DNA of 37,757 nucleotides from Oscillospiraceae bacterium (lineage in GTDB: Bacteria; Bacillota; Clostridia; Oscillospirales; Acutalibacteraceae), in assembly GCA_015065425.1 (NCBI GenBank), contig SVQH01000030.1:1-37757 (forward strand), read 5' to 3'. How positions within the stretch are numbered: position 1 is the stretch's first letter; each line of letters begins with the position of its first letter. The notes beneath the pieces are model-generated. The model made no database searches. It had not been told where the DNA came from and was given only the letters and a program-made list of their open reading frames with translations. Shown piece by piece: positions 9,662-34,496 of this stretch. Made by a program: the position numbers and the translations under genes.

Positions 9662-10999
9662 TTATCTGTGTTTTCTTACGATTCTGTTTACAATGCTCTG
9701 GACATTTCTTGCTTTTTCGAGTAAATGCGTATATGAGAAATATAACGCCTTGTTTGATACAAGAACATATTCTCCGATAAATTCAATATATTCAGAACCG
9801 AAGCTCTTTTTGAAGGAAAGAATACCTTCAAAATCAGGGGCTGCTTTACATACGCCCAGTGTTCCGTCTGCCTCGGGAGGAGTTTTTTCAAGAAGCACAT
9901 ATCCCAGATCGTGATAGTCACTGCCTTTTTCAATGCTGTGACATATTCTTCTGAAATTAAAGAAATGACTTGCTCTGAGATTGTTTCTCAGAAGATTTCT
10001 TGAACCGCCGAAAAGACAGGAGGACATTTTGTTGTAATGAAGGGTCATACCGCCCGAAACACAAATGATATCTTTATCACTGTTTTCCGTCTCCTTCATT
10101 CTCTCTTCAAAATGAGCAGTAGCCTTGTCTATGGAATCAATTTCTTCCTTTATTCCTCTTATTTTCTTCTCGGGAGCAGTTTCAAGAGATTTCAGAAGCT
10201 CTTCTTTTCTTCTGAGCTTTTCCGCCTGTATTTCTTTATCTTTATTCTTATCATAATAGATAAGCATCATATCAAGTCCGTCTTCACCGAAGACCTCCAT
10301 GATACGCTTACAGTAATCCCCACCTCTTTCGACAAAATCACTTCTTTCTGAGGTGTCCTTCATAACGGCAAGGAAATCCTCCATTATCACGGGGTCTTTT
10401 TCAATATCACGGATGGTATATATCTTCTCGGTAAGTCCTCTGCCTTCGCCTACTCTTACAGAATATCTTACACCCTTTTCAAAGGTTTTGAGAAGCTTGT
10501 CGGAAGTGTATTTTTCTCCGTCGGGGGAAACAAGCTTTGTTATAAGCTGAACGGGTGATTTATAAAGAGTCTTTGAAGCATCCGTATTAAGTGTAAACCC
10601 GTTTTCGGTAAAAAGACGGTGAGCCGCCTTTCCCTGAGACACATCTTCTCCGTTTACTCTCAGAGGAATGAGAGGGTCATAAAAAAGAGCTGTTATCTTA
10701 TTGGCTTTCAGTTCTTTTTTCATAAACTCCGAAAAAGCCGAAAAAAGCTCTTTGTTTTCATGGTCGAACACAGCACCTGCAGGGCAGTACCATATTTTAC
10801 CCGCAGCAGGAATGCTTCTCTCCATAATAAGAGCCGTAAGCACTCTTTCACCGTCTCCGGAAAATCCCGAATAAAAACGGCTGTTCCATTCAAGCTTTAC
10901 TTTAGCCCATTTTTCGGATTGCATATATATACCGCCGTGAGAAAGAACAAACTCCTCAAAGGCTTTCATATCTGTTTCTTTAGTAAATGTATAACTCAT
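9662..10999 (-). CDS. FemA/FemB/FemX-family aminoacyltransferase (peptidoglycan cross-bridge)
   Basis: 445 aa. Fem proteins transfer amino acids from aminoacyl-tRNA to the third stem-peptide residue of lipid II to build cross-bridges. Two GNAT-like halves are recognisable (SGFSGDGERVLTALIMERS..., and a C-terminal SFKKSFGSEYIEFIGEYVL). The charged coiled-coil arm typical of the family lies at about 255-315. The gene overlaps the murE stop by four bases (ATGA), so translation is probably coupled. This pairing implies cross-bridge addition to the stem residue set by MurE. The residue transferred cannot be read from sequence. Confidence 0.88.
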   Translation of the reverse strand: MSYTFTKETDMKAFEEFVLSHGGIYMQSEKWAKVKLEWNSRFYSGFSGDGERVLTALIMERSIPAAGKIWYCPAGAVFDHENKELFSAFSEFMKKELKANKITALFYDPLIPLRVNGEDVSQGKAAHRLFTENGFTLNTDASKTLYKSPVQLITKLVSPDGEKYTSDKLLKTFEKGVRYSVRVGEGRGLTEKIYTIRDIEKDPVIMEDFLAVMKDTSERSDFVERGGDYCKRIMEVFGEDGLDMMLIYYDKNKDKEIQAEKLRRKEELLKSLETAPEKKIRGIKEEIDSIDKATAHFEERMKETENSDKDIICVSGGMTLHYNKMSSCLFGGSRNLLRNNLRASHFFNFRRICHSIEKGSDYHDLGYVLLEKTPPEADGTLGVCKAAPDFEGILSFKKSFGSEYIEFIGEYVLVSNKALYFSYTHLLEKARNVQSIVNRIVRKHR

Positions 11000-12459
11000 A
11001 TCATTTTTCCTTTACAGAACTTTTCTACGCTTTCGTGATCGGAATAATGTACTTTTTCCCCTTTTATCTTCTGTGCCGTCTCGTGCCCTTTTCCGAGAAT
11101 AAGAACAATATCGTCCTTTCGGGCAACACTCATAGCATAGAAAACTGCCTCTTCCCTGTCTGTTATTATCTTATATTCTCCGCCTTCTTTTTCAACGAAG
11201 GAAGCAATTTCTTTTGCAATGCTCTCAGGGTCTTCATATCCCGGGTCATCTGTAGTGATTATACTGAGATCTGCCTTTTTACCGCAGACAAGTCCCATCT
11301 CCTGACGCCTCAGCTGAGCACGGTCACCGACAGAGCCGTACACGCAGATGATTCTGCCGTGAGGATATTCTCTGACGGTATCAATGACGGAATTGAAGCT
11401 CTGTCCGTTGTGGGCATAGTCTATAATGACGGCAAAATCCGTACCCGTATCCATAAGCTCGTTTCTGCCCTTGACTCTCGCTTTTTCGAGAGCGGAAACT
11501 ATCATATCATCCGAAATACCGTATTCCCTGCACACGGCAACTGCCGCCAGGGCATTATACACACTGAAATATCCCGGCATTGCAATTTTTGCAGCAACGG
11601 TATTTCCCTGCGTCGTGTAAGTAAAGCCTACACCGAAAAATCCGTTTTCCCTGAGATTTTTTATATTATCAGCCGTAAGCTCTGATTTTTCATTTATTGA
11701 AAAACAAGTATACGGCACTGTTATCTCTTTTATTATTTCTTCAGAAAAAAGATCGTCTTTATTGAATATTGCCTTTTTGCATTTTTTGAAAAGCTGCTTT
11801 TTCCAGTATGAATACTCTTCAAAGCTGTCATGCTCTGCTCCGCCTATGTGATCGGGGGAAAGATTTGTAAATACACCCTGAGAAAACTCCATTCCTTCCA
11901 CCCTGTAATTCTTAAGTCCGATGGAAGAAACCTCAATACAAGCCGCCTTACAGCCTGCATCTGCCATGGCTCTGAGAAGCTTATGAATTTCATAGGATTC
12001 GGGAGTGGTATTTACCGTGGGCACATATTTTCCGTCATAATACGCACCGACAGTACCAATGACACCGCTTTTTATACCGCACTCATTAAGACAGGTGCAA
12101 AGCATCTGCGTAACCGTAGTTTTACCCTTTGTGCCCGTGACACCTATTACATCAAGCTCCTTATCGGGATGAGAGAAAAAGTTTCCGCTGATATAAGCCA
12201 GAGTCTCTCTTGTATTTTCCGCAAATATACATAGAGCATCAGAGGGAAGCTCCACCTTCTTACTGAGAAGAAAAACTCTCGTTCCGAGGAGATATGCACT
12301 TTCCGCATAATCGTGTCCGTCTGAAAATGCCCCCACAAGGGCAACAAACATTTTTCCGGGAGCAGCAGCTCTTGAAGAATATACAATATCCTCAATGTCT
12401 TCATCCCTGAAGTTGTCACAGGTGTAATTTACATTTTCAAAAATTTTAGATAAAAGCAT
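10996..12459 (-). CDS. murE: MurE-type UDP-MurNAc-tripeptide ligase
   Basis: 487 aa. It adds the third amino acid to UDP-MurNAc-L-Ala-D-Glu in the cytoplasm. Seen: an N-terminal MurE domain (about 20-95), the ATP loop GTKGKTT, EVSSIGL in place of the common EVSSHAL, the lysine in the YSYWKKQLF context that corresponds to the carbamylated lysine, and the C-terminal Mur domain. At about residues 404-411 the diamino-acid motif is DDPGYEDP. The meso-DAP type (DNPR) is absent, so I infer L-Lys or another diamino acid, in keeping with the downstream Fem gene. Ribosome site AAAAGGATC. MurE is by far the best fit; the exact substrate is open. Confidence 0.88.
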   Translation of the reverse strand: MLLSKIFENVNYTCDNFRDEDIEDIVYSSRAAAPGKMFVALVGAFSDGHDYAESAYLLGTRVFLLSKKVELPSDALCIFAENTRETLAYISGNFFSHPDKELDVIGVTGTKGKTTVTQMLCTCLNECGIKSGVIGTVGAYYDGKYVPTVNTTPESYEIHKLLRAMADAGCKAACIEVSSIGLKNYRVEGMEFSQGVFTNLSPDHIGGAEHDSFEEYSYWKKQLFKKCKKAIFNKDDLFSEEIIKEITVPYTCFSINEKSELTADNIKNLRENGFFGVGFTYTTQGNTVAAKIAMPGYFSVYNALAAVAVCREYGISDDMIVSALEKARVKGRNELMDTGTDFAVIIDYAHNGQSFNSVIDTVREYPHGRIICVYGSVGDRAQLRRQEMGLVCGKKADLSIITTDDPGYEDPESIAKEIASFVEKEGGEYKIITDREEAVFYAMSVARKDDIVLILGKGHETAQKIKGEKVHYSDHESVEKFCKGKMI

Positions 12460-29689: not shown

Positions 29690-30397
29690 TCAGAATTTTA
29701 TCTTCGGATCTTCAAATTCCGAAAGTCTTTTATTATAAGCTTCCATTGCTTCTTCTCTGAATGCCGCTTTTTCCTTGCCGCCTGCAAGAGATATCAGATG
29801 TTCAGTAAAAAGGGGATTTAGAGGAAGAATGGGACCGAGACAAGTGGTACATATAAGATTTTTCTTTCTCATACCTTCAAGCTTACTCTCTTTATTGATA
29901 CCGTCACCCCTTATCATTTTAAGGAAGAAACAATCGGAATTGTCTCCGTAAATAAAACTGAACTGGGAACGGAAGCCCACTATTTTTATTCCGTCGGTCT
30001 CACCAAGCACTTTGCCGTTATATCTTTTGAAAAGGTCTGTCTTTACGCTGAAAGGGAAAAATCCCAGTGCTTTTACCTCTTTTTTCTCTGTAATATATTC
30101 TATTTTATCACAAAAAAGCTCCGCAGCATTTCCCGTTGCAAGAATTACAGTACCCTTTTCGGTAAGTTCATTCAGTCTATGCTTCAGAGGTTCAAAAATG
30201 CCGAGAACCCTTCTCTGCATTTCTTCACTCATAGAGCCTAAGAGAATGATGTCGGGCTCATTCTTCACAAAATAAGGTTCACTGCAAAGGTCTGTATAAA
30301 TAAACTCTGCTTCGGGAAGGCTGAGACGCAGATATTCTGCATTCTGTGCATCACCGTAAAGACCGCATACTTCGGGATAAAGAATTTCAACTGTCAT
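29690..30397 (-). CDS. GatD-like class I glutamine amidotransferase without catalytic Cys and His
   Basis: 235 aa. In Gram-positives GatD strips ammonia from glutamine for MurT to amidate the D-Glu of lipid II. The overall match is clear: IVGF, and CLGPILPLNP against the family YLHGP-LLP-NP. But the nucleophile elbow, ICGGYQ in active GatD, reads ATGNAA here (Thr88 in place of Cys), and the catalytic His of LHGP is Leu187. The segment that is usually GFENHGG reads GFRSQFS. So this protein should not hydrolyse glutamine. It overlaps the MurT-like gene by one base (TAATG), so the two are co-made. Family comparison is from memory. Confidence 0.8.
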   Translation of the reverse strand: MTVEILYPEVCGLYGDAQNAEYLRLSLPEAEFIYTDLCSEPYFVKNEPDIILLGSMSEEMQRRVLGIFEPLKHRLNELTEKGTVILATGNAAELFCDKIEYITEKKEVKALGFFPFSVKTDLFKRYNGKVLGETDGIKIVGFRSQFSFIYGDNSDCFFLKMIRGDGINKESKLEGMRKKNLICTTCLGPILPLNPLFTEHLISLAGGKEKAAFREEAMEAYNKRLSEFEDPKIKF

Positions 30398-31770
30398 TAT
30401 TTTGTTCCCTCCCCTAAGTTTTTGAGCTGAACACGCATTTTGTCAGCATCAGGCTGTCTGTAAAGCTCGTAAAGCACATATATGTCATTGAATTTTTCGG
30501 TATCTATAAGACTTACTGCCTTTGTGACATCCTCGCAAAGAACTATTTTGTCCTTTGAAACACCCTGAATAAGTGCCCTTAAAAGCTGGTCACGGCATCT
30601 GGGACCCGCAAAAATTATCTGAGCAATACTCTCATCCTTAAGATAAGAGTAATCGCAGTCATAAAGCCAACAGGTACTTTCACTTTCTCCGATGTTATCA
30701 TGAAGGTCATCAACATCAATAATAAGAAGCTTGTTTTTAACGGGGATGGATGCCATATAGCTGTAGCATCTTGCACAGGCAATGGGATTTTGTCCCTTTG
30801 CCATCTGGAAAGTAATATTGAGTTTACCTGCCTTCATGGTGTCAAATCTTGTTTTTACAATCTCTGACTCACTGAAACCTTTTTCTGTTTGAGAAATATC
30901 CAGCCCTGCTTCCGTAAGAAGTGCTATGGCACCTGCAAAGTTATAAACATTTACTATGTTATCGTTTATAAGATTGAAGGTATGCTCTTTTCCTTTGAGA
31001 GAAACGGTAAACTTTTCATTTTCACGGTCAATGTCAGTCACAAGATAGTCTCTTTCGGGAGATTTTACCTGACATGAAGTACAGTGCATCCTGCCGATAT
31101 GGTTATATCTGAGATATTCACTTTCAAGAAGATTTCCGCACTCGGGGCAGTAAACAATATCACTTAAAAACGGCTTTTCGCTGATTTCGGGCTTTTCGGC
31201 ATCAAGACCGAAATAAACCCTGTTCTTACACTGCTTTGCAAGTGAAGCAGTTATAAGGTCATCGCCGTTGAGTATAAGCTTCGTCTTTTCGGGAAGAGAA
31301 GACGAAATTATATAGCTTATAAATCCCGTATGAGCGTTTCTCTTGATGGAGTCACGCATAATGTTGTTTACAACAAGAAAATCGGGCTTTATATAGGGAT
31401 ATACAAGAAGTGAAGACCGCTCGTCCACCTCAAGCACCGCAATTTTTTTCTTCGCTCTGCCCAGAATATCCGAATCGGCAAGAAGAGCCGCGGCGACACC
31501 TGCCTGAACATTTGAACCGAAGGAATTATTAGTTATGTCATATCCGTTTTTTGTAAAAACTGAAGCAAGAAGATTGCTGACCGTAGTCTTACCGTTAGTA
31601 CCCGTGACACAAATGACGGTCTCAGGCATTTTAAGATGACCTAAAAAATCCTTTGATATTTTAAGTGCAACCTCACCCGGAAGATAAGTTGCATTTCTTC
31701 CGAGCATCTTCAGAAGAAGACGTGCAAGCTTTGCCATAAACAATGCAATAAAAAAACGTAATTTATTCAT
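30397..31770 (-). CDS. MurT-like Mur ligase with zinc ribbon and DUF1727 domain, divergent
   Basis: 457 aa from ATG 31770; a second ATG at 31779 sits too close to the AGGGA site. MurT uses ATP to amidate lipid II together with GatD. Seen: the family N-terminus (MAKLARLLLKMLGRN), ATP loop GTNGKTT (57-63), a Cys4 zinc ribbon (Cys208, 211, 230, 233) inserted in the Mur domain as in true MurT, and a DUF1727 C-terminus. Odd: the usual RDQLDRYGE is RDSIKRNAH, and the NP(V/A)G-N segment is NPIACARC. The divergence parallels that of its GatD partner. Function may differ from standard iso-glutamine formation. Confidence 0.82.
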   Translation of the reverse strand: MNKLRFFIALFMAKLARLLLKMLGRNATYLPGEVALKISKDFLGHLKMPETVICVTGTNGKTTVSNLLASVFTKNGYDITNNSFGSNVQAGVAAALLADSDILGRAKKKIAVLEVDERSSLLVYPYIKPDFLVVNNIMRDSIKRNAHTGFISYIISSSLPEKTKLILNGDDLITASLAKQCKNRVYFGLDAEKPEISEKPFLSDIVYCPECGNLLESEYLRYNHIGRMHCTSCQVKSPERDYLVTDIDRENEKFTVSLKGKEHTFNLINDNIVNVYNFAGAIALLTEAGLDISQTEKGFSESEIVKTRFDTMKAGKLNITFQMAKGQNPIACARCYSYMASIPVKNKLLIIDVDDLHDNIGESESTCWLYDCDYSYLKDESIAQIIFAGPRCRDQLLRALIQGVSKDKIVLCEDVTKAVSLIDTEKFNDIYVLYELYRQPDADKMRVQLKNLGEGTK

Positions 31771-31803
31771 AAATTTCATTTCCCTGTATTATAATTAATT
31801 GCC

Positions 31804-31825
31804 GTCGGGAAAAAGCTTTCCCGAC
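31804..31825. other. 9-bp perfect hairpin between the aminotransferase and MurT-like genes
   Basis: GTCGGGAAA and TTTCCCGAC around a 4-base loop. On the minus strand it is followed by GGCAATTAATTATAAT rather than a T-run. It may be a partial terminator, a processing site, or part of the leader of the MurT-like gene. TATAAT just after it could be a -10 box, but no -35 is seen. Confidence 0.5.
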
Positions 31826-31835
31826 AGCATTATTA

Positions 31836-33086
31836 TCAAAGAATAGCCTTTATGCTTTCTTTAAGTATCTGAAGTCCCTTCATGAGAACATCATCCTCAA
31901 TTACAAGAGGAGGCATGAGCTTAAGAACATTGTTATCTCTGCCGACTCTTTCAACAATAAGACCGTTCTTGAAGCATTCCGCAATAAGAGCCTTTGTCAT
32001 ATCCCCGTCAAACTGAGAAAAATCAACACCCCAGATAAGACCGACACCTCTGAAAGAAATACGACTGTCAAGAGGGCATACCTCATTTTGAAGGAAAGAA
32101 GCTACAATATCGCCTTTTCTCTGAACTTCCTTTTCAACATTTTCCTCAACTATCTTGCGAAGACCTTCTTTACCCGCAATAAGGGAAAGCTGGTTTCCTC
32201 TGAAAGTACCCGTATGCTCACCGGGTGTCCATATATCAAGCTCCTCCTTGAAGAGAACAAGAGCAAGAGGCATACCGAAGCCGCCGATGGACTTTGAAAG
32301 TGTTACCATATCAGGTACGATACCTGCCTTTTCAAATGAGAAGAATGTACCTGTTCTCGCATTTCCTACCTGAATTTCATCAGCAATAAGAAGAATGTCG
32401 TGCTTTGTGCAAAGTTCTCTTAAAGCCTTTAAGAAATCCGCTTCAAATGCATATATACCGCCGTCAGCCTGAACACATTCAAGAATAACTGCGGCAGGCT
32501 TTTCAACACCTGAATGGTCATCTGTGAGAAGAGTCTCCATATACTTTATCACATCAAGCTCGGGGAACATATAGGGAGCAGGAATATGAGTCACATTGTG
32601 AAGAGCCTGTCCCGCACCTTCTCTTGAAGAAGCATCGGTTGTAAGAGAAAGAGCACCCAGCGTCATTCCGTGGAAAGCACCCATAAAAGCAAAAATGTTT
32701 TCTCTCTTTTTATTTTTTCTTGCAAGTTTTATTGCAGCCTCTACGGCATTTGTACCTGTAGGACCTGCAAACTGTATCTTATAGCTGAAGCCTCTGGGCT
32801 TTAATATATTTTCCTGGAAATATTCAATAAAATCTCTCTTGGGAGCGGTATACATATCCATTGAATGAACAATACCGTCATTCTGAAGATATTCAATTAC
32901 TTTTTCTACCATACAATCGGGATTGTGACCGTAATTGAGTGCACCTGCACCTGCAAAAAAGTCAACATATTCCTTGCCGTCCTCGTCTGTCATAACAGCA
33001 CCCTTTGCCTTTGTAAAAACAGTGGGAAAACTGCGGCAGTATGAACGTACATTTGATTCATAACTTTCAAAAGCTTTTGTATTCAT
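31836..33086 (-). CDS. EctB-type class III aminotransferase (L-2,4-diaminobutyrate:2-oxoglutarate)
   Basis: 416 aa, the length of EctB. EctB makes or uses L-2,4-diaminobutyrate by swapping an amino group with aspartate semialdehyde. The similarity to EctB, as I recall it, is close along the whole chain: the SFPTVFTKAKGA start, FFAGAGALNYGHNP, GPTGTNAVEAAIKLAR, and a TLSKSIGGFGMPLA segment with the PLP lysine. Other ectoine genes (ectA, ectC) are absent from the window, so ectoine synthesis is not supported. A promoter lies at 33159-33131. The next genes are the MurT/GatD-like pair after 65 bases. Related class III aminotransferases with other substrates cannot be excluded. Confidence 0.85.
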   Translation of the reverse strand: MNTKAFESYESNVRSYCRSFPTVFTKAKGAVMTDEDGKEYVDFFAGAGALNYGHNPDCMVEKVIEYLQNDGIVHSMDMYTAPKRDFIEYFQENILKPRGFSYKIQFAGPTGTNAVEAAIKLARKNKKRENIFAFMGAFHGMTLGALSLTTDASSREGAGQALHNVTHIPAPYMFPELDVIKYMETLLTDDHSGVEKPAAVILECVQADGGIYAFEADFLKALRELCTKHDILLIADEIQVGNARTGTFFSFEKAGIVPDMVTLSKSIGGFGMPLALVLFKEELDIWTPGEHTGTFRGNQLSLIAGKEGLRKIVEENVEKEVQRKGDIVASFLQNEVCPLDSRISFRGVGLIWGVDFSQFDGDMTKALIAECFKNGLIVERVGRDNNVLKLMPPLVIEDDVLMKGLQILKESIKAIL

Positions 33087-33239: not shown

Positions 33240-33269
33240 TTGACAATATGAAACAAGTATTGATATAAT
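33240..33269 (+). promoter_or_regulatory. Promoter of the M28 peptidase gene
   Basis: TTGACA at 33240-33245 and TATAAT at 33264-33269 with an 18-base spacer, about 34 bases before the start codon. Confidence 0.82.
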
Positions 33270-33302: not shown

Positions 33303-34496
33303 ATGAAGAATTTCAGAAAAAGTCTTTCGCTTCTTCTTGCATTGATGCTGTTTTTCTGCTGCTCTGTTAATGCTGAAGCAGCTTTCAGTTTTCTCGGGAT
33401 GCGTTCGGGTGATGTGGATTTTGACGGCAGTATTACCGCTGAGGATGCAAGACTCATTCTGCGTGCTGCGGTAAAACTTGACAGTCCCGCATGGTTTCTC
33501 AGGATATTTTATGACCTTGACTCGGACAGCCAAATAACATCAGCCGATGCAAGAACGGCACTGCGTATTGCCGTAGGACTCGAAGAACTCACGGAAAATA
33601 CATCCTCTTATGAAAAAATGATGTCGGGGATGCTTGAGGGAGTTTCACAGAAAAACCTCAACTCTCTTATGAAAAAACTGTGCAGTTTAGGCTCCCGCAG
33701 CATAATATATCCTAAAAATAATACGGCGGCTCAACAGTTTATCACAGATGAACTGACCTCATACGGATACGAACCGTCAAAACAGCTTTTCACCTATGCA
33801 TCCATTCAGACAGCAAACATCATTGCAACGCTGAATCCAGGCAAAAGCAAGGATATTCTTCTTCTGTGCACCCATTATGACTGCTGGGACGGTGCTGAAG
33901 GTGCAATAGATAATGCTTCAGGTGTTGCGGCAATGCTTCATGTAGCAAAGCTTCTCAAAGAATCGGACATTGAGCTTAACAAAGAGGTGCGTTTTGCTTT
34001 TCTGTCAGCGGAAGAATACGGCTATCACGGAGCCTATCATTATGTCAGCAAACTCTCAAGTGCTGAAAGAAACAGACTTATTGCCTTCAATGTGGATATG
34101 GCGGGCAACTCCGACCTCGGCGGCGGCCGCTGTCTCACAGTCAGCACAGAGCCTGTTTCGGGAAGCTATACATGGCGTGAAGCAAAGCACAACGACGTAA
34201 GCAAAGCCATAGATAAAGCCAAGAATTATCTCGGAAATATCGGAGAGGAAAAATATTATTCCCCTGTTGCTGCAGGAAGACACGACAGTGTTCCCTTCAG
34301 AGAAAACGGCATACCCGCCGTCACTCTCTCATGGAGAGAAATACGAAGCTCCGGTTCGTACGGTTCGGATTACGGTCTTGCCGCCCCCTCTCAGATACAT
34401 ACAACTCTCGACACTTATGAAAATTTCAACAATAAATCGCTTTTCAACACAACAAAGCTCATATTCGGCTCGGTTCTTACACTCTGTGCACAATAA
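33303..34496 (+). CDS. Secreted M28 zinc aminopeptidase with N-terminal dockerin
   Basis: 397 aa. Signal peptide (about 1-27), then a dockerin at about 34-95 (GDVDFDGSITAEDARLIL and DLDSDSQITSADARTAL), then an M28 peptidase domain. The co-catalytic zinc ligands are in order: His191 (HYD), Asp203 (IDNASG), Glu237/Glu238 (SAEE), Asp265 (NVDMAG), His366 (QIHTT). An extracellular aminopeptidase that probably docks to a cohesin scaffold. It is unusual that the dockerin is at the N-terminus. It is one of the few plus-strand genes, with its own promoter and a strong terminator, and lies between two minus-strand groups. Ribosome site GGGGAAG. Confidence 0.93.
   Translation: MKNFRKSLSLLLALMLFFCCSVNAEAAFSFLGMRSGDVDFDGSITAEDARLILRAAVKLDSPAWFLRIFYDLDSDSQITSADARTALRIAVGLEELTENTSSYEKMMSGMLEGVSQKNLNSLMKKLCSLGSRSIIYPKNNTAAQQFITDELTSYGYEPSKQLFTYASIQTANIIATLNPGKSKDILLLCTHYDCWDGAEGAIDNASGVAAMLHVAKLLKESDIELNKEVRFAFLSAEEYGYHGAYHYVSKLSSAERNRLIAFNVDMAGNSDLGGGRCLTVSTEPVSGSYTWREAKHNDVSKAIDKAKNYLGNIGEEKYYSPVAAGRHDSVPFRENGIPAVTLSWREIRSSGSYGSDYGLAAPSQIHTTLDTYENFNNKSLFNTTKLIFGSVLTLCAQ

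Follow-up and report, generated by a model that had tools for sequence, protein, structure and literature searches.

A MurT/GatD-like gene pair in the window, by which is meant the whole analysed stretch of 37,757 nucleotides from an Oscillospiraceae bacterium, encodes a GatD subunit that has lost the catalytic residues of its glutaminase and a MurT subunit that keeps the residues of the ligase. As judged from the sequences the change appears selective, in that the glutaminase and its gate are altered while the ATP-dependent ligase seems unaltered. Very probably the pair is thus a working ligase without a glutaminase, whatever amine it uses. For the lineage of the window there is a slight lean towards L-2,4-diaminobutyrate over ammonia as this amine. 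The preliminary description of the DNA had presented one altered pair; the pair is real, but it is not a lone oddity, since it belongs to a widespread clade, called class 2 below.

The gene pair and its setting

The features discussed are listed in Table 1.

Table 1. Positions in the window of the gene pair, its neighbour, key codons and other features mentioned in the text
Feature	Position	Strand	Remark
GatD-like subunit, glutaminase-dead, class 2	29690..30397	-	235 aa, frame open
MurT-like ligase subunit	30397..31779	-	460 aa, frame open; start possibly 31770
TAATG, murT stop/start of gatD	30395..30399	-	1-base overlap
EctB-like diaminobutyrate--2-oxoglutarate aminotransferase	31836..33086	-	56 bases upstream of murT
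Terminator-like hairpin, aminotransferase/murT gap	31800..31829	-	13 pairs, weak T tail
Gly89 (GatD Cys94 position)	codon 30131-30133	-	alignment
Leu187 (GatD His189 position)	codon 29837-29839	-	alignment
Ser368 (MurT Asp349 position)	codon 30676-30678	-	alignment
MurT Glu367, clade-conserved	codon 30679-30681	-	alignment
MurT His150	codon 31330-31332	-	alignment
Second MurE	10996-12459	-	DDPG motif
FemAB-family gene	9662-10999	-	directly after second MurE
Promoter-like site	33240-33269	+	TTGACA-18-TATAAT
M28 peptidase	33303-34496		dockerin-like stretch

The two genes of the pair are presumably translationally coupled at the TAATG. An AGGGA site lies 1 base before the first murT ATG and 10 bases before the second, and because of this spacing the start of murT may be found at the second ATG, the position also assumed in the preliminary description. 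The hairpin between the aminotransferase gene and murT speaks against a simple three-gene operon; as a signal it is weak, four sites of this class being seen where 2.6 were expected in shuffled sequences.

The MurT- and GatD-like proteins match their S. aureus counterparts with E values of 1.4e-52 and 2e-9, respectively, and the class-I amidotransferase fold with its C-terminal helix is present in the GatD-like protein. However, the cut-offs of NF045635 and NF045636 were missed (30.9 and 43 bits vs. 400 and 450), as were those of NF052463 and NF052464 (191.5 and 209.3 bits vs. 800). The genome containing the window (95% complete, 59 contigs) gave a single GatD match and a single MurT match, and no second, normal MurT/GatD pair was found in it, about 5% of the genome possibly being missing. 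The same-genus genome G076 displays the identical three-gene order, with intact proteins that are 79, 82, and 88% identical to those of the window. The dN/dS values between the two are 0.09-0.10, at a dS of 0.9 to 1.65, i.e., near saturation. Neither a frameshift nor a Cys or His at the expected positions was found, and decay or assembly error is ruled out by the 113 distinct GatD relatives, the purifying selection, and the gene order of G076. The earlier view that two subunits which changed together while staying coupled and intact point to function rather than decay is thereby borne out.

Loss of the glutaminase residues and retention of those of the ligase

The glutaminase triad of S. aureus is reported to consist of Cys94 and His189 of GatD and Asp349 of MurT, D349N being inactive (PMC6113224), and the GatD mutants C94A, H189A, and R128A are all described as inactive (PMC5871853). 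For S. pneumoniae it has been argued that the third triad residue is GatD Asp32, and MurT D355A is reported to have only reduced activity (PMC6085368). The Cys94 and His189 positions were read both from a phmmer alignment and from an alignment of 133 sequences. The nucleophilic Cys is lost as first described; its position, however, is taken by Gly89 in both alignments and not by Thr88. His189 aligns with Leu187 and the GFENHGG segment of canonical GatD reads GFRSQFS, both in agreement with the preliminary description. MurT Asp349 corresponds to Ser368, a change which, like the neighbouring diaminobutyrate aminotransferase, was absent from that account.

The same losses are found throughout the clade. 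In 113 distinct class-2 GatD sequences the Cys94 column contains 104 Gly, five Ser, three Asn, and one Ala but no Cys, while the His189 column contains 58 Ile, 41 Leu, 11 Val, two Gln, and one Thr but no His. In nearly all of them the GGG oxyanion loop has other residues in place of its last two Gly and mostly reads G-[PSA]-M. The Asp349 column of 110 class-2 MurT sequences displays 84 Asn, seven Ser, five Thr, four Asp, and others. With Cys94, His189, and Asp349 gone, ammonia would not be obtained from glutamine in the usual way. The window GatD does keep Asp16 at the position of S. pneumoniae Asp32, and the Arg that captures glutamine (S. aureus Arg128, Arg125 here) is retained, 111 of the 113 sequences having Arg and two His. 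The Gly-Pro after the former His position and an Asn-Pro are also kept in class 2.

No obvious replacement nucleophile was seen among the conserved Cys and His columns of these 113 sequences. None of the columns reaches 60% His. Cys is commonest at residue 26, where 95 sequences have it but the window has Ser; residue 11 follows with Cys in 78, including the window. That glutamine is still used by means of different residues would agree with the retained Arg, and with the Cys and His found conserved at new places in class 3 (13/14 and 12/14), the relative described below. The column statistics, the altered oxyanion loop, and the inactivity of the S. aureus mutants nevertheless make it highly improbable for class 2.

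The ligase half is a different matter. The window MurT keeps the P-loop, the acceptor Asn, and the Mg-binding Glu and Asp-Glu, and the corresponding residues are reported to be needed in the S. pneumoniae and S. aureus enzymes (PMC6085368, PMC6113224). The P-loop Lys (K64) is found in 105 of the 110 class-2 MurT sequences, and N90 (the acceptor Asn), E117, D119, and E120 in 106 each, the remainder being gaps in partial genes. Each of the four Cys of the Cys4 ribbon is present in 108. This agrees with the initial observation that the ATP loop and the Cys4 zinc ribbon were intact, and that other MurT motifs were altered: RDQLDRYGE reads RDSIKRNAH in the window and RDSxxRNAH in class 2 (His150 in 99/110), while K--NP reads KGQNP, with two residues inserted. 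The canonical sequences used for comparison were few, six distinct ones with the published structures as support.

These loop changes, those at the C-terminus of MurT, and the PF14397 ATP-grasp genes (sugar-transfer associated) that adjoin six class-2 loci might be taken to mean that the pair is a Mur-ligase-like enzyme acting on another carboxylate, outside lipid II. This is highly improbable, as all 106 class-2 MurT sequences covering those columns have the acceptor Asn as well as the Asp-Glu pair.

New residues have become conserved as well. Glu367 of MurT, beside the Asp349 column, is found in 109 of 110 class-2 sequences, and class-2 GatD, unlike class 1, has near-invariant Glu58 (113/113), Asn90 (111/113), Glu93 (102/113), and Gln145 (101/113). 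Of these GatD residues, the first three are common to classes 2 and 3.

A mechanism compatible with the conserved residues would begin with MurT binding ATP and Mg and activating a carboxylate as an acyl phosphate, most likely the one at the α position of D-Glu within the lipid-linked precursor of the wall. The triad that is split over two subunits being gone, the usual glutamine-derived ammonia would not be delivered. The amine would rather enter from solution through a remodelled GatD/MurT gate including MurT Glu367 and His150 and GatD Glu58, Asn90, and Glu93, and GatD would be retained as an obligatory structural subunit. Up to this point, and leaving aside which amine is used, these three steps are considered very probable. 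The preliminary description had named free ammonia or another amine, a purely structural subunit, and a different acceptor without ranking them. An amine from solution combined with a structural GatD is now favoured, and a different acceptor is mildly disfavoured by the kept acceptor residues.

Compared with MurT/GatD of S. aureus, S. pneumoniae, and S. pyogenes, the pair is similar in having two coupled genes, both folds, the ATP loop, the acceptor and Mg residues, the Cys4 ribbon, and the equivalent of GatD Arg128. It is different in lacking the catalytic Cys, the His, and MurT Asp349, and in having GGG, ENHGG, RDQLDRYGE, and K-NP replaced by clade-specific motifs. A literature search by titles and abstract openings, with subscription journals mostly outside its reach, found no glutaminase-less MurT/GatD.

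Distribution of class 2 and its relatives

A search with the GatD sequence matched 98 of 300 genomes of the window's family. Three profiles were run on those 300, A3 for the canonical class 1, A1 for the window-like class 2, and A4 for class 3, giving matches in 118, 97, and 98, respectively, and class was assigned by the best score among the three. In this way 24 loci were assigned to class 1, 42 (from 41 genomes) to class 2, and 33 (from 32 genomes) to class 3, with four loci unplaced. The counts exclude the weaker A3 matches, which were to long proteins, a frame of 48 residues at the edge of a contig (G258), and some isolated weak matches. The MurT/GatD-like loci sit in 97 genomes, and the other 203 are without any pair. 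Classes 1 and 2 occur together in none of the 300 genomes, while classes 2 and 3 do so in three (G084, G107, and G192). A contig scan with one conserved peptide gave 386 relatives, 80 of which were kept. Their Cys94 column contains 72 Gly, four Ser, three Asn, and one Ala, and their His189 column 50 Ile, 24 Leu, and six Val, with no Cys or His. In a FastTree analysis of joined MurT and GatD rows from 56 loci, class 2 (37/37) and class 3 (13/13) each have a support of 1.0, and the two are found on one branch apart from six class-1 sequences.

Class 3 (L072-L081, L083, L086, L087, and L091) is a second MurT/GatD-like clade without Cys94 and His189. The new Cys of its GatD is found in an INKC motif and the new His in a GTH motif, while the Asp349 position of its MurT is mostly Glu or Asp (12/13). 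Possibly the active site of class 3 has been relocated, as far as can be read from these motifs.

The glutaminase Cys and His are absent from every aligned member of class 2 (n = 113) and class 3 (n = 14). Since these residues define the enzyme, the name isoglutaminyl synthase should be withheld from the pair in spite of its descent from MurT/GatD. The two classes make up 75 of the 103 profile-placed MurT/GatD-like loci in this gut family, for which that label is unsafe. Amidation of D-Glu is reported to influence the cross-linking of the wall (PMC6085368), and the wall chemistry of bacteria carrying class 2 or 3 may differ from that of the model Gram-positives.

Three genera, g51, g75, and g82, have class 1 or class 2 as alternatives (G169/G050, G185/G074, and G264/G191, respectively). 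This alternation suggests replacement or exchange, and it is easiest to explain if both classes make the same product.

The neighbouring aminotransferase and the amine

The aminotransferase of the window passes the TIGR02407 cut-off by only two bits (554.3 vs. 552.2). A homologue is found within three genes of the class-2 pair in 10 of the 113 loci with distinct GatD, always on the same strand but in three arrangements: before murT (the window, L032, L092, and L101), after gatD (L037, L153, L160, and L170), or three genes after gatD (L062 and L064). The gap between the pair and the aminotransferase is 20 bases or less in four of them (L037, L101, L153, and L160). A rescan of all frames again gave 10, which is a lower bound because many of the fetched loci are short, only 86 having at least two genes before the pair and one after it.

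At an E value of 1e-90 the aminotransferase is present in 46 of the 300 family genomes, namely 24 of the 41 with class 2, six of the 29 with class 3 only, none of the 24 with class 1, none of the three with unplaced loci, and 16 of the 203 without a pair. The difference between class-2 and pairless genomes has a Fisher value of 2.7e-12; counted by genus (12/21 vs. 13/114) the value is 1.3e-5, and 11 genera hold a genome with both. In a tree of the 46 aminotransferases the class-2 label changes only four times, compared with a mean of 14.8 after shuffling. The association is thus partly inherited, and the Fisher values overstate what amounts to a handful of events, not dozens.

Seventeen of the 41 class-2 genomes of the family are without the aminotransferase at this threshold. 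Named loci led to another 50 genomes with class 2, hand-picked from 72 and not compared one by one with the 300, of which 11 have it and 39 lack it. Isolates without it include Frisingicoccus caecimuris and Coprococcus catus, and within the genus of the window G187 and G261 have class 2 but no aminotransferase. The clade as a whole can therefore not be using diaminobutyrate as its amine. The glutamine residue at MurT position 330 is found in all 23 aminotransferase-bearing class-2 family genomes but in only 8 of 15 others, and Thr441, Val439, and others also differ; uncorrected for kinship or number of columns, these differences are only a lead.

Another amine or amino acid, such as glycine, a diamine, or a D-amino acid, might be the nucleophile and vary by subclade, and the near-invariant MurT Glu367 and His150 and GatD Glu58 and Asn90 could bind such a ligand. 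However, the neighbour table, covering 105 of the 113 loci (eight GatD frames were lost to an overlap rule), displayed by eye neither an amine-making neighbour general to class-2 pairs nor any further amine-making gene among the recurring neighbours, and this reading is considered unlikely. In about 25-29 class-2 loci the pair stands among what are presumably housekeeping genes.

When the aminotransferase occurs in a genome without a pair, it tends to have another partner. A PF14397-type ATP-grasp ligase directly follows it in 11 of 15 fetched loci from pairless genomes; one of the 11 was scanned with Pfam and the remainder belong to its BLAST cluster. The aminotransferase frame was not recovered in L188, L198, L203, and L210, and L210 was taken from the genome-search coordinates. 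An ATP-grasp ligase counted as close if its identity was 49% or more, a line set after the table had been inspected; such a ligase is found in 18 of the 22 aminotransferase genomes without class 2 and in one of the 24 with class 2. Of the 254 genomes that lack the aminotransferase only one has it, if two short partial matches are disregarded. At the E value of the search itself, 1e-30, the numbers are 21/22 and 12/24, with 97 of the 300 genomes matching overall. With the 49% line, 42 of the 46 aminotransferase genomes have either class-2 MurT/GatD or the close ATP-grasp ligase, as if either ligase consumed the product of the aminotransferase.

In genomes without class-2 pairs, an EctB-like aminotransferase gene stands before a PF14397-type ATP-grasp gene in L207, L208, and L211-L218, also in L206, and in L202 with a small frame between them. 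Judged by gene content, this could be a system for diaminobutyrate ligation that has gone unrecognised. In L221 (5547-7769) a TupA-like ATP-grasp gene (PF14305) lies directly before the aminotransferase, in what by eye resembles a surface-polysaccharide cluster.

Other uses of diaminobutyrate were considered. That it is made for ectoine or diaminopropane is not supported, both genes being rare (for decarboxylases PF00282 only). Ectoine synthase was found as one weak match in the 46 aminotransferase genomes and not in the window genome, by a search that had no positive control, none of 14 control genomes giving a match. PF00282 decarboxylases exceed the cut-off in five of the 46, strongly in two, and are absent from the window genome. 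Incorporation at stem position 3 by MurE is not supported by the motifs of the main MurE, which in the 30 loci apart from L222 and L224 are DNPR or DNSR in aminotransferase genomes and DNPR, DNSR, and once DNCR in the others.

Precedents exist for both ammonia and diaminobutyrate. S. aureus MurT/GatD with the C94G mutation is reported not to use glutamine but to amidate lipid II with NH3 at pH 8.5, though not at 7.5, and MurT or GatD alone to be inactive (PMC3266927). The natural pair resembles this mutant in having Gly for Cys at the same position, with GatD present and glutamine unusable. It differs in being without His189 and Asp349 as well and in its changed gate, while for the mutant NH3 was the sole donor, accepted at the higher pH but not at the lower. 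This precedent accounts for the retention of a dead GatD, and in its light the simplest donor is free ammonia. Animal carbamoyl phosphate synthetase I likewise keeps a glutaminase domain without its Cys and takes ammonia from solution, although ligase and substrate are unrelated to those of the class-2 pair.

An ammonia-dependent isoglutaminyl synthase would make ordinary D-isoglutamine with the free NH3 in an anaerobe's cytoplasm, GatD only stabilising MurT, and the aminotransferase would serve the same wall at a different step. This would account for the class-2 genomes without the aminotransferase, could cover all genomes, and fits the alternation with class 1 within genera. On the other hand, at pH 7.5 NH3 was no substrate for the S. 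aureus enzymes (PMC3266927), and both the repeated linkage to the aminotransferase and the either-or pattern with the close ATP-grasp ligase are left unexplained. It is a serious candidate, though on balance doubtful.

If, instead, the amine is L-2,4-diaminobutyrate in the lineages with the aminotransferase, including that of the window, the product would be a diamino-acid substituent on D-Glu. This last step is suggested by the association of the genes, which holds for part of the clade, and by the fact that other visible uses of the compound are rare; together these probably point to diaminobutyrate. The hairpin before murT and the lack of the aminotransferase in same-genus relatives and in 39 of the 50 additional genomes argue against it. 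The complete sequence of four steps, diaminobutyrate included, is accordingly put forward as tentative, its chances falling somewhat short of even. A product of this type is known from Clavibacter, where the group B (B2γ) peptidoglycan is reported to carry D-diaminobutyrate on D-Glu (PMC9603630). That case is actinobacterial and known from wall chemistry, the ligase not being named in the part of the source consulted (PMC9603630), whereas the window is known from genes alone. A broader proposal is that class 2 is an amino-acid ligase derived from an amidotransferase, which in Clostridia with the aminotransferase joins 2,4-diaminobutyrate to the α-carboxyl group of D-Glu, gives a group-B-like wall beside a DAP-type MurE, and is interchangeable with the ATP-grasp ligase serving that aminotransferase in other species. 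This is unlikely, though far from negligible. Should diaminobutyrate prove to be the nucleophile, a residue carried by D-Glu could be assigned its gene in Clostridia.

Further genes of the window may concern the wall. They include one for a second MurE, in which DDPG stands where the main MurE of the genome has DNPR, the motif of DAP-adding enzymes, and a FemAB-family gene directly after it. Two MurE are also found in the genus mates G076 and G187 and in the class-2 genome G215. Judging by these genes, a stem peptide or bridge of an alternative kind may occur in the organism. Finally, a perfect promoter-like site with a TG before its second hexamer is found upstream of the M28 peptidase gene.
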